A model generated the notes under the pieces. The model saw only the letters and a program-made list of their open reading frames with translations. It was not told the origin of the DNA and searched no databases. A program made the translations under genes and the position numbers. This document shows positions 19,639 through 23,307 of a stretch of 34,908 nt of DNA, piece by piece. The stretch's first letter is position 1; every line of letters starts with the position of its first letter. Source of the DNA: Flavobacteriales bacterium (lineage in GTDB: Bacteria > Bacteroidota > Bacteroidia > Flavobacteriales_C > GCA-002722245); contig PBLA01000002.1 in the NCBI GenBank assembly GCA_002722245.1, forward strand, positions 45,742-80,649. The letters run 5' to 3'.

Positions 19639-20829
19639 TTAGTCTAGGATTGAACCATTGACTGCATTAAAAATAATGTTAGGAACTGCTGCGATTTTAG
19701 AGAATCCTCTCACATCATTTCCGTCCCAAAGCTTATTCATTTCACCATACTGTGCGGCTGAACTATTCATTAAGTCGTGCTTGCTTTCAATTCCTAAAAC
19801 CTGGAAGTGATTTGGTGACAGCTTAATCTTGGCAGTACCAGTAACATACTTTTGAGTATCCTGAAGGAATGTTTCAATGTTTCTCATTACGGGGTCTAAG
19901 TATTGACCTTCGTGTAATAAGTTGCCATACCAATTAGCTAATTGCTCCTTCCAATATAACTGCCATTTTGCCAAAGTATGTTTTTCCAACGTGTGGTGTG
20001 CTTTGATTATGATTAGTGGTGCAGCAGCCTCAAAACCTACACGACCTTTGATTCCAACAATTGTATCACCAACGTGAACATCTCTACCAATTCCGTATTG
20101 ACAAGCAATTTCGTTCAACTTGTTAATCGCTGAAATAGGATCTAGATCCTCTCCATTGATTCCAACAACCTCGCCTTTCTTAAATGTTAATTCCACTTCC
20201 TCAGAATCATGTTTTTGAATTTGTGATGGGAATGCTTCTTCAGGTAAGAACTCGTTTGAAGTTAACGTCTCTTTTCCACCTACAGATGTTCCCCAAATTC
20301 CTTTATTAATTGAGTAGGCTGCTTTACTCCAATCACCGTCCACACCATGCTTTTCTAAGAATTCAATCTCTTCCTCCCGCGATAGTTTGTTGTCACGGAT
20401 TGGGGTGATGATTTCAGCCTCAGGGTAAATAATGTGAAAAGCCATGTCGAACCGAACTTGATCGTTACCAGCACCCGTTGAACCATGAGCAATAGCATCA
20501 GCTTTTAATTCTTTTGCATATTGTGCAATAGCAACAGCTTGGAAAATACGTTCAGCACTCACCGATAATGGGTAGGTGTTATTCTTTAGAATATTCCCAA
20601 AGATTAAGTATTTTATACACTTGTCGTAAAATTCTTGCGTAACTCTAATCGCCTTGTATGACGCTAAACCAATCGTATTCGCTCTGTTCTCCACAAAGTC
20701 TAATTCCTCTTGGCTAAATCCACCCGTATCAATTAATACAGCATGTACCTCATACCCTAAATCACCCAAATACTTTACACAGTAAGTTGTATCTAAACCT
20801 CCACTGTATGCTAAAACTACTTTTTTCAT
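19639..20829 (-). CDS. argG: Argininosuccinate synthase
   Basis: A 396-residue enzyme that joins citrulline and aspartate with ATP to form argininosuccinate. The ATP-binding PP-loop is LAYSGGLDTTYC (5-16). ArgG landmarks follow: IAHGSTGAGNDQVRFD, NIWGTS-like KGIWGTSVGG, and GRVGFEAAAPL. Length matches the bacterial family. It is the promoter-proximal gene of the argG-argC-argD unit. The remaining genes (transcarbamylase, argB, deacylase, argH) are not in the window. Upstream lies the divergent menC, then the GNAT gene. Confidence 0.97.
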   Translation of the reverse strand: MKKVVLAYSGGLDTTYCVKYLGDLGYEVHAVLIDTGGFSQEELDFVENRANTIGLASYKAIRVTQEFYDKCIKYLIFGNILKNNTYPLSVSAERIFQAVAIAQYAKELKADAIAHGSTGAGNDQVRFDMAFHIIYPEAEIITPIRDNKLSREEEIEFLEKHGVDGDWSKAAYSINKGIWGTSVGGKETLTSNEFLPEEAFPSQIQKHDSEEVELTFKKGEVVGINGEDLDPISAINKLNEIACQYGIGRDVHVGDTIVGIKGRVGFEAAAPLIIIKAHHTLEKHTLAKWQLYWKEQLANWYGNLLHEGQYLDPVMRNIETFLQDTQKYVTGTAKIKLSPNHFQVLGIESKHDLMNSSAAQYGEMNKLWDGNDVRGFSKIAAVPNIIFNAVNGSILD

Positions 20830-20912: not shown

Positions 20913-21968
20913 ATGTTCAAAGCACCGCTTTTGTTATCGAATCAATTATTAAAGGCTACTTGGGAAAAACATGAATTAGTATTTAAACGTCCGGCCAAAA
21001 CTTCTCGTGAAATATTTAACACCAAGGACACTTATGTGCTTAAAATATCTTTTGAAGATGAAGCGATTCAGGGTTGTGGAGAATGTAGTCCACTATGGAC
21101 ATTAAGTATTGATCCAAAGGATGAATATACCGATAAATTGGATTGGGTTTGTTCAAACATCAATTCGTGGAATGAATTTTTGTATTCAGATGAACTTTCG
21201 AATTATCCCAGTATCCAGTTTGGGATAGAAACAGCGTTGCTCGATTTACAACATGGTGGAAAGCAAATTGTATTTCCTTCAATATTTACAGAAGGAAAAG
21301 ATGAAATTGAAATCAATGGTTTGATTTGGATGGGTGATTACAAATACATGGCCCAACAAATCGAAGAAAAAATTTACGCAGGTTTTAATTGCGTTAAACT
21401 TAAGATAGGAGCAATTGATTGGGAACAAGAAAAGGACTTGCTAAAAAATATCAGAAGTCGTTTTTCAAAGGAAGAAATAGAATTAAGAGTTGATGCAAAT
21501 GGAGCATTTTTGCCTCAAAACGCTATGGAAAAGCTAAAAGTTTTAGCGGATTTAGAGATTCATTCTATTGAACAACCAATCATGGCAGGACAATTAGAAG
21601 AAATGGCTCAATTGTGTGCAAAAACACCAACACCAATTGCCTTAGACGAAGAGCTTATTGGGGTAAAAAAAATATCCGATAAGCGGGCTTTACTTGAGTG
21701 TATACAACCAGAATATATCATTTTAAAGCCAAGTTTAATTGGGGGTGTTAAGTCTTGTAATGAGTGGATCTCTCTTGCTGAAGAATTGAATGTTGGTTGG
21801 TGGGCAACTTCTGCACTTGAAGGGAATATCGGTTTAAATGCTATTGCTCAATTTGCATATCAAACGGGGAATAAAATGCCTCAAGGACTTGGCACAGGTC
21901 AACTTTTTGAAACTAATTTTGATGCTCCAATCGAGTTAAAAGGTAATTTGGTGTGTTTTAAAAAGTAA
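20913..21968 (+). CDS. menC: o-Succinylbenzoate synthase (enolase superfamily)
   Basis: A 351-residue enzyme that dehydrates SHCHC to o-succinylbenzoate in menaquinone synthesis. The enolase-superfamily active site is complete: the K-x-K pair K162/K164 in VKLKIG, metal ligands D194 (RVDANGAF), E220 (SIEQP) and D245 (ALDEE), and the second catalytic lysine K272 (ILKPS). The capping domain is N-terminal (1-115). Its closest look-alikes are dipeptide epimerase and N-acylamino acid racemase; the pattern EQP...LDEEL...LKPSLIGG fits the MenC group of Bacteroidota. No other men gene is nearby. It lies, oppositely oriented, between the GNAT gene and argG. Confidence 0.87.
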   Translation: MFKAPLLLSNQLLKATWEKHELVFKRPAKTSREIFNTKDTYVLKISFEDEAIQGCGECSPLWTLSIDPKDEYTDKLDWVCSNINSWNEFLYSDELSNYPSIQFGIETALLDLQHGGKQIVFPSIFTEGKDEIEINGLIWMGDYKYMAQQIEEKIYAGFNCVKLKIGAIDWEQEKDLLKNIRSRFSKEEIELRVDANGAFLPQNAMEKLKVLADLEIHSIEQPIMAGQLEEMAQLCAKTPTPIALDEELIGVKKISDKRALLECIQPEYIILKPSLIGGVKSCNEWISLAEELNVGWWATSALEGNIGLNAIAQFAYQTGNKMPQGLGTGQLFETNFDAPIELKGNLVCFKK

Positions 21969-22001: not shown

Positions 22002-22541
22002 TTATTTCTTCTTCTCATTTGGATCCATCAACATTCCTGTACACAAACAGTGTTTTTTGTCCGTCCGCGTGAGAATATCATAATTCACACAACTTTGACA
22101 CCCCTTCCAAAATTGTTCATCATCAGTTAGTTCACTAAAAGTAACTGGACGATACCCTAATTCCGAATTAATTTTCATTACAGGAAGCGAAGTGGTTAAT
22201 CCAAAAAGTTTTGCTGTTGGAAACTTTTCTCTTGAAAGTTCAAACGCTTTTTGCTTTATTTTTTTTGATAAGCCTTGCCCGCGGTAATCCTCGTGTACAA
22301 TTAAACCTGAGTTCGCAACATATTTATCATGTCCCCATGATTCAATGTAACAAAAACCTGCAACGATGTCGCCATCTAAGGCAATAATAGCCTTTCCTTC
22401 CTCGATTTTTTGAACGATGTATTCAGGTTTTCTTTTCGCAATTCCAGTTCCACGTTTTTGTGCGGCATCTTCAATCATGCTCACAATCTTGGTTGCGTAT
22501 GTCGTATGATTTTGGTTTGCTACTTGAATATCGATTGCCAT
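22002..22541 (-). CDS. GNAT acyltransferase, candidate first enzyme of arginine synthesis
   Basis: A 179-residue GNAT protein. The acyl-CoA pyrophosphate loop is YRGQGLSKK (86-94), preceded by the strand ANSGLIVHED; the fold runs from about 5 to 140. It ends in an unusual cysteine cluster: C148 and C151 in WKGCQSC and C165 and C167 in HCLCTG, a possible metal site. GNAT proteins of this kind lead the arginine operons of many Bacteroidota, which lack a classical ArgA, and are candidate N-acylglutamate (acetyl or succinyl) synthases. Here it is on the argG strand but separated from it by menC. A 25-codon Arg-rich ORF lies directly upstream, strengthening the arginine link. Pathway role is inferred. 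Confidence 0.8.
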   Translation of the reverse strand: MAIDIQVANQNHTTYATKIVSMIEDAAQKRGTGIAKRKPEYIVQKIEEGKAIIALDGDIVAGFCYIESWGHDKYVANSGLIVHEDYRGQGLSKKIKQKAFELSREKFPTAKLFGLTTSLPVMKINSELGYRPVTFSELTDDEQFWKGCQSCVNYDILTRTDKKHCLCTGMLMDPNEKKK

Positions 22542-22586
22542 TCTTTTTAAATTTATAAGATGATAAAGAGGTTGATTAACAGTTTT

Positions 22587-22664
22587 TTACGCTTTTTCAC
22601 GCCTGATAATGCTCCTCCTCAAAAGAATGGTTAAAGCCATGATATTTTTGACTACATCGTTCAT
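22587..22664 (-). CDS. Candidate arginine-rich leader peptide upstream of the GNAT gene
   Basis: A 25-codon ORF from ATG 22664 to TAA 22587, ending 45 bp before the GNAT start. It opens MNDVVKNIMALT and continues LLRRSIIRREKA, with two pairs of adjacent arginine codons (AGG AGG and AGG CGT) at positions 16-17 and 21-22. Clustered codons for the pathway's end product just before the pathway gene is the hallmark of translation-sensing attenuators. A TAnnTTTG match (22682-22675) would start the transcript within a few bases of the ATG. I could not find a clear terminator hairpin after it, so the mechanism, if real, is not the simple trp type. It may also be a chance ORF. Confidence 0.5.
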   Translation of the reverse strand: MNDVVKNIMALTILLRRSIIRREKA

Positions 22665-22674
22665 AATGGAAAGA

Positions 22675-22682
22675 CAAAAATA
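22675..22682 (-). promoter_or_regulatory. Putative -7 element for the leader ORF / GNAT transcript
   Basis: TATTTTTG on the minus strand (22682-22675) matches TAnnTTTG exactly, 10 bp before the leader ATG at 22664. No TTG lies at the proper -33 distance, so the call rests on the -7 element alone. Confidence 0.35.
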
Positions 22683-22749
22683 CTTAAAAAATTAAAAGTT
22701 GGCTGTAGAACAATGTTTTCCATTTACATTTATGGCTTAATTTTTTATC

Positions 22750-23307
22750 ATGAGATATTTAATTGGTATCCTTTGCGTTCTTTTATTTTCATCCTTGCAC
22801 GCACAATCAAGTAAGGAGGATTTAATTCAATATTGTGAGTTCCTAACTCACCAACAGGTGGATTCTTTAATGCAGTATTTCCATCCTAAACTTTTTGAGT
22901 TTATTTCAAAGGAGGAATTAACCAAAACGTTGCGCTCTGTTTATGGAGATTCATCCATGGTTGTGTCATTGGGATCGCCTAAAAAAATTAATCTTAAAAA
23001 GAGTTTTATCCTTGAGGGAGTTACTTATGAGGTTTTAACGTACCAATTTGACATGAACATTATGTTTGCTGATACAGCCTCAGAAGCGTCATCTTTTGAA
23101 TTTATTTATGCGTTAATGAAAGCGCAATATGGAAAGAAAAGAGTGAATAAAAATGAGAGTAAAGAATCAATTAATGTGCTGGTGGATAGTAGAAATATTG
23201 GAATTCTTGATCCCAATCAAAAGAACTGGATTTTTATTAATTATAAATCTAAAAAAGATCCGATTTTAGGAAAGTTGCTATCCGACAAGGCGTTGAAAAA
23301 ACTTTAA
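22750..23307 (+). CDS. Small secreted protein, unknown
   Basis: A 185-residue protein with a clear signal peptide (1-18, cleaved after LHA, giving mature QSSKED). The mature part is mixed alpha/beta with no cysteines after the signal. It begins with a helical segment (EDLIQYCEFLTHQQVDSLMQYFHPKLFE has the look of the NTF2-like/DUF3887 fold) and has strands such as GVTYEVLTYQFDMNIMF and NWIFINYKSKKDP. No catalytic motif is apparent and I do not recognise a specific family. It is probably periplasmic. It converges on the RDD gene, whose stop codon directly abuts its own. A weak promoter-like TACATTTA lies at 22725-22732. Confidence 0.72.
   Translation: MRYLIGILCVLLFSSLHAQSSKEDLIQYCEFLTHQQVDSLMQYFHPKLFEFISKEELTKTLRSVYGDSSMVVSLGSPKKINLKKSFILEGVTYEVLTYQFDMNIMFADTASEASSFEFIYALMKAQYGKKRVNKNESKESINVLVDSRNIGILDPNQKNWIFINYKSKKDPILGKLLSDKALKKL

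Follow-up and report, generated by a model that had tools for sequence, protein, structure and literature searches.

An arginine-codon-rich leader ORF upstream of a GNAT acyltransferase gene in a Flavobacteriales bacterium is a probable arginine-responsive attenuator

What is the role of a 25-codon ORF, rich in arginine codons, directly ahead of a gene for arginine synthesis? The question was raised by a 34,908-nt stretch of a Flavobacteriales genome, here called the window, in which an initial annotation had interpreted such an ORF as an arginine-sensing, ribosome-mediated attenuator. The ORF, with two Arg-Arg pairs that place all four of its arginines within the last ten codons, was confirmed to the base, and its TAA is separated from the GNAT start codon (ATG at 22541) by the 45 nt that had been claimed. 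The coding features of the locus are the following.

22002..22541, minus strand: GNAT N-acylglutamate synthase-type gene, first step of arginine synthesis (Pfam Acetyltransf_1; orthologues before argG)
22587..22664, minus strand: leader peptide ORF MNDVVKNIMALTILLRRSIIRREKA, 25 codons (ATG + 24) plus TAA (ungapped and equal in length in the congener loci L082/L083; class-wide homologues by position)
22614..22619, minus strand: Arg codons 16-17 (AGG AGG), the proposed sensor codons (from the sequence and a folding calculation)
22599..22604, minus strand: Arg codons 21-22 (AGG CGT), the second Arg pair (from the sequence)

Shuffled sequences and the 35-kb window served as the null for ORF counts. 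Just two ATG ORFs of 12-45 codons with at least four Arg in their last 12 residues were found in the whole window. The other one lies antisense within a gene, whereas the leader ORF is intergenic and linked to a promoter. AGG accounts for three of the four Arg codons of the leader, compared with a 9% share across the genes of the window. A second, overlapping ORF (GTG AAA AAG CGT ..., MKKRKKLLINLFIIL) ending just 5' of GNAT was considered and rejected; congeners lack it. Rfam covariance models gave no match at the gathering score in the window and 20 other loci, and no match up to an E of 5 in 22450-22760.

The downstream gene had been thought to catalyze the first arginine-specific step, and the assignment held, as the gene is the probable orthologue of a Bacteroidetes enzyme genetically tied to that step (PMC7311316). 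Bacteroides requires this enzyme, BT3761, to make arginine, and its activity is probably that of an N-succinylglutamate synthase (PMC7311316); orthology of the window's GNAT to it is suggested by the shared argR/GNAT/argG neighbourhood. GNAT orthologues with 59-88% identity lie directly before argG in many other families, and GNAT is joined to argG in the sister genus. In the window's genus, the two are split by a menC-like gene on the opposite strand (20913-21968, plus strand), and control by the leader would thus be limited to GNAT. The argG gene of the window (19639-20829, minus strand) is served by a separate TAnnTTTG promoter with no Arg ORF, and within the order the argB and argH loci showed no Arg leaders upstream.

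The perfect TAnnTTTG that had been placed before the ORF is present at 22682-22675, 10 nt 5' of the ATG.

22675..22682, minus strand: sigma-A -7 box TAnnTTTG (TATTTTTG); L082/L083 have an identical box, likewise 10 nt from the ATG
22665..22670, minus strand: putative start of transcription near 22670, leaving almost no 5' UTR (6 nt at most), as placed from the TAnnTTTG position

In Flavobacterium psychrophilum, the TAnnTTTG consensus is given as spanning -12 to -5, and 5.5% of mRNAs are given as leaderless (PMC9723704). With the box at -12 to -5, an ATG located 4 nt past the box sits at +1. An ATG located 10 nt past it, as in the window, would therefore be about 6 nt from a transcription start just upstream of 22664, and we infer from this spacing that the leader mRNA is nearly leaderless. 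No -33 element was evident by eye.

To compare loci, the 500 nt upstream of GNAT were extracted from about 185 loci. The comparison of orthologous leaders that the initial annotation had proposed returned conserved ORFs with Arg codons, not their absence. The close congeners G001 and G004 carry MKSASQHIIALSILNRIRNRRPSRA or MKSTSLHIIALSILNRIRNRRPSRA, each of 25 codons, ungapped against the window and preceded by the same TATTTTTG at the same 10-nt spacing. A same-genus homologue has five Arg codons at a length and promoter spacing equal to those of the window leader, and 48 of 78 nt are identical between the window leader and L082. Leaders of the sister genus have 28-30 residues (e.g., MFLKTKHIANKLPSFTRPNRPSRRPHGGIC), and in further families (e.g., MKIASNIFFHTSRSYRRRR, MNTKAHNFLITRSSFPVTRFVPTRRRP, MLTVSPRIRLLRRRI) the sequences diverge and the Arg content is kept.

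An Arg-blind test was performed on 163 non-redundant loci, in which ORFs were picked solely by an ATG 3-12 nt after TAnnTTTG. It returned 25 ORFs, compared with 2.25 per shuffle set, and 17 of the 25 have at least three Arg in their last 12 residues (3% of shuffle ORFs do). The Arg share of these 12 residues is 27.7%, compared with 6.0% in shuffles. The ATG of the blind-test Arg leaders lies 4-10 nt past the box (25 loci), corresponding to a 5' UTR of 0 to 6 nt. When leaders were instead selected by Arg content, an exact box was found 3-12 nt upstream in 18 of 67, compared with 1% of random positions; in some families the box is 30-40 nt upstream, and 38 Arg-selected leaders have no exact box within 80 nt.

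An Arg-selected leader was present upstream of GNAT in 69 of 116 loci without an ArgR motif (5.6 expected from shuffles) and in 3 of 69 loci with ArgR upstream (8.8 expected), a difference with a Fisher p of 1.6e-15, although the loci are mutually related, so that the Fisher and shuffle figures overstate independence. This relatedness inflates the leader statistics, but too little to put the result in doubt. Loci were scored as having ArgR upstream when the translated 500 nt contained its motif. Two of the five same-genus genomes, G002 and G003, have no leader and appear to have lost it. In these genomes (L089/L028 in G002, L099 in G003), an RDD-family gene stands shortly ahead of GNAT, and the Arg leader is missing. 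In family f54 (L145, L162, L163, L181), the leader is a variant poorer in Arg, MNxxxLHITxxSRTNRPxTSPEVRML(LV), and lies about 240 nt from GNAT.

ArgR (PF02863) had no match in the window's genome and is present in 18 of 392 genomes of the class. Thirteen genomes combine a full-length GNAT with an intact ArgR match (G040, G080, G112, G142, G170, G195, G238, G297, G315, G332, G349, G366, and G382); in every one of them, argR is the gene immediately 5' of GNAT and shares its strand, and ArgR-upstream loci are nearly always without an Arg leader. As argR always adjoins GNAT where both exist, the site before GNAT tends to be occupied by one or the other, argR or an Arg leader. ArgR repressor systems control the same genes, with argR directly before GNAT in Bacteroidales-type loci; ArgR is a DNA-binding repressor, however, and it is missing from the window's genome and nearly exclusive with the leader. 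The annotated role as an arginine-sensing ribosome-mediated attenuator thus gained support from class-wide conserved Arg-rich ORFs that occur far above shuffles and replace ArgR. We have high confidence that the leader ORF is real and related to arginine, it likely has a present function in the window's genome, and it very probably acts there as an arginine-sensing leader.

Other amino acid leaders were found in the same genome. The hisG gene (L221) is preceded by the leader MNKQKHIHHHFTTLPRA (HIHHH), 10 nt after TATATTTG, followed by a strong U-tract terminator, GAGCCACGCTAATTAGCGTGGCTTTTT; judged by eye, its 5' arm could pair with the leader end. The trpE gene (L225) is preceded by a GTG-started ORF with TGG TGG TGG (WWW), 4 nt after TATATTTG, followed by a U-tract terminator, AAGCTTGCAGTTCACTGCAAGCTTTTTTTTT, able to pair with the leader end. 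An aspartokinase/homoserine dehydrogenase gene (L226) has a Thr/Ile leader, M(HM)ISKNILLISATTTVIAIAIITPFGV. The TAnnTTTG-to-start spacing of the His, Trp, and Thr/Ile leaders is 4-10 nt, like that of the arg leader. No leader was found near ilvD. The occurrence of His, Trp, and Thr/Ile leaders in one genome suggests that leader-peptide control is a general habit of the organism and the arg leader its arginine case.

The absence of a clear terminator hairpin after the ORF was borne out; neither an intrinsic terminator nor a terminator-like hairpin was found in 22450-22800. The arg leader of the genus departs in this from the His and Trp leaders, which are followed by ordinary terminators, and its spacer is only 45 nt long. 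The predicted pairing of the leader RNA involves three segments.

22621..22630, minus strand: anti-start sequence CCATTCTTTT, leader codons 12-15, a 10-nt perfect complement of 22538-22547, paired in the minimum-energy fold
22538..22547, minus strand: GNAT translation start region AAAAGAATGG, the pairing target, including the start codon (sequence; fold)
22564..22571, minus strand: CCTCTTTA in the spacer, predicted to pair with TGAGGAGG over Arg codons 16-17 (minimum-energy fold)

The 10-nt match between CCATTCTTTT and AAAAGAATGG was reached by 0.2% of shuffled leaders (P about 0.002). The predicted cost of opening the GNAT start region is 7.6 kcal/mol in the free RNA and 4.3 kcal/mol with a ribosome at codon 16, and it returns to 7.6 kcal/mol with a ribosome at the leader stop; the opening cost alone is not significant, as 6.5% of leader shuffles reach it. 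The second Arg pair (codons 21-22) had a smaller effect or none in the folding calculation, and the whole leader RNA folds only mildly better than shuffles (z -1.45). In the congeners L082/L083, TTAATAGG pairs with CCTATTAA at the matching place (P about 0.05) and the start codon is untouched; the predicted stalling response is weaker there, and stalling at codon 18 is of no help. The missing terminator, the 10-nt match to the start region, and the drop in opening cost favor a translational read-out in the window's genome, which we hold tentatively, at a little under an even chance, on the basis of these folding models.

Taken together, the leader ORF is probably an arginine-responsive, ribosome-mediated attenuator of GNAT that depends on stalling, with a translational read-out being the favored form. 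Transcription would start a few bases before 22664, and the leader would be translated from a nearly leaderless mRNA end. When charged Arg-tRNA is plentiful, the ribosome would reach the stop codon and leave, and the free leader RNA would pair with the GNAT start codon region and the spacer upstream of it. When charged Arg-tRNA is scarce, the ribosome would stall at the leader Arg codons; stalled at codons 16-17, it would cover the anti-start segment, and the GNAT start would be freed. The transcription start, the stalling, and the translational control in this scheme are each inferred from the sequence.

The read-out varies across relatives. In family f38, the loci L102 and L151 clearly have a transcriptional read-out: a terminator with a U tract is present and, judged by eye, its 5' arm is able to pair with the end of the leader. 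Many relatives have an arg-leader hairpin with an almost invariant CC-UAYGY-GG loop.

40-150 nt before GNAT: CC-UAYGY-GG hairpin in L009, L023, L069, L072, L092, L105, L131, L138, L139, L147, L155, L160, L164, and others

Within the 160 nt nearest GNAT, 19 copies of the 9-mer CCTAYGYGG were counted, compared with none at 260-500 nt upstream. At least five extra pairs flank 14 of the 19 sites, compared with 1.1% at random positions. In an alignment of 17 sequences, 95.8% of the pair positions are paired and the covariation score is 0.79, compared with 0.25 in shuffles and at most 0.19 in slid controls, but most of the 17 rows were picked for complementary flanks, and the 14 of 19 count is the unbiased figure. 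With the hairpin model R1, the best match was the arg leader in 11 of 11 genomes. Seven R1 matches outside arg leaders were inspected and lie inside or just after protein-coding genes; they look like chance. One of them, a CC-UACGC-GG hairpin around base 1505 of L247, falls within the opening codons of an arginine decarboxylase-like gene and is probably due to chance, though arginine-related. The CC-UAYGY-GG hairpin is absent from Rfam and is usually without a U tract after it; in the sister genus, the loops of a related hairpin are UUCGC-like. A hairpin over the leader stop codon, examined as a general feature of 77 leaders, gives a modest average signal (mean z -0.85). The window has a weak stop-codon hairpin compared with relatives and has lost the conserved CC-UAYGY-GG hairpin, which may mean that the element is decaying there. 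It is conceivable, with more doubt than attaches to the window's own read-out, that Bacteroidota without ArgR combine a leaderless or near-leaderless Arg leader with the non-terminator CC-UAYGY-GG hairpin in an undescribed read-out mechanism, of which the window would hold a shortened version with its read-out moved to the start codon.

Other explanations for the locus were weighed against a stalling-dependent translational attenuator. The same Arg-sensing leader could act on transcription without an intrinsic terminator, through Rho or pausing on the RNA exposed after the ribosome departs. Many relatives would suit this, having spacers of 86-150 nt with a conserved structure and no U-tract terminator, and the transcriptional read-out of the two f38 loci points the same way. 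The window itself, however, offers little room for a Rho loading site in the 45 nt between the leader stop and GNAT, and no terminator or pause-like hairpin is predicted there, so we consider this rather unlikely. A still less probable explanation is that the window retains a relic, namely a genuine ancestral arginine leader without its former regulatory structure and with little remaining effect. The lost CC-UAYGY-GG hairpin (hairpin B), the weak stop-codon hairpin, the loss of the leader in G002 and G003, and the menC-like gene parting GNAT from argG are all consistent with decay. The ORF length, promoter spacing, and Arg count were nevertheless kept while only 48 of 78 bases match L082, and three of the four Arg codons are the rare AGG, which speaks against a relic.

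Leader peptides that sense free amino acids are known for the arginine pathway in other organisms, and we counted this in favor of a further explanation, namely that the nascent RR-rich peptide is an arrest peptide sensing free arginine or ornithine, like fungal AAP or SpeFL, rather than slow decoding being the signal. RP and RRP endings recur among the leaders, but beyond Arg content the peptide is not conserved between families, and the endings RA* and PFGV* are shared with His and Thr leaders and are compatible with an RNA hairpin spanning the stop codon; an arrest peptide is thus improbable. That the ORF arose by chance is scarcely credible. Short Arg-rich ORFs do occur, as the antisense one in the window demonstrates, but chance is contradicted by the positional conservation, the promoter linkage, and the exclusion with ArgR.

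The preferred stalling-dependent attenuator resembles enterobacterial hisL, trpL, and thrL, which likewise consist of a short leader ORF rich in end-product codons directly before a biosynthetic gene, with stalling as the proposed signal. The His and Trp leaders of the window's genome fit the hisL/trpL class, terminator included. The arg leader differs from hisL, trpL, and thrL in its amino acid, in having no terminator or antiterminator, in its predicted nearly leaderless translation, and in belonging to a phylum without Shine-Dalgarno use; as it lacks the terminator, it is not filed as a classical transcription attenuator of the trpL/hisL type. To our knowledge, no bacterial leader-peptide attenuator of arginine biosynthesis has been characterized.

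Mycobacterial polycysteine leaderless ORFs are described as cysteine-responsive attenuators (Canestrari 2020, as cited in PMC9031893). As described there, they would share with the proposed arg leader a leaderless short ORF, codon runs for a single amino acid, and control of the downstream gene by translation; they differ in responding to cysteine, in being actinobacterial, and in having no sequence relation to it. The enterobacterial speF leader is described as carrying arginine codons (PMC6386406). In the accounts consulted, this leader and the fungal arginine attenuator peptide are likewise arginine-related upstream peptides controlling arginine or polyamine genes, but in other organisms, at other genes, with another logic, and with no sequence relation. 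Within the same phylum, "strong clues" for leader peptides before amino acid operons were reported in F. psychrophilum; the main text of that study names no arginine leader and gives no mechanism, and its supplement may list one (PMC9723704). Short ORFs "reminiscent of leader peptides" are mentioned in passing elsewhere (PMC7366714). Our literature searches, which included the main text of the F. psychrophilum study, found no arginine leader. Ribosome-mediated attenuation is a known principle; the arginine case appears to be new.

In summary, the Arg leader explains how Bacteroidota without ArgR may sense arginine, and the near-exclusion of leader and ArgR at one gene is a clear case of regulator replacement across a phylum. 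The study of this leader also exposes an uncatalogued conserved RNA hairpin that is directly testable, and the arg leader predicts leader-peptide control in a group whose translation initiation does not rely on Shine-Dalgarno pairing.
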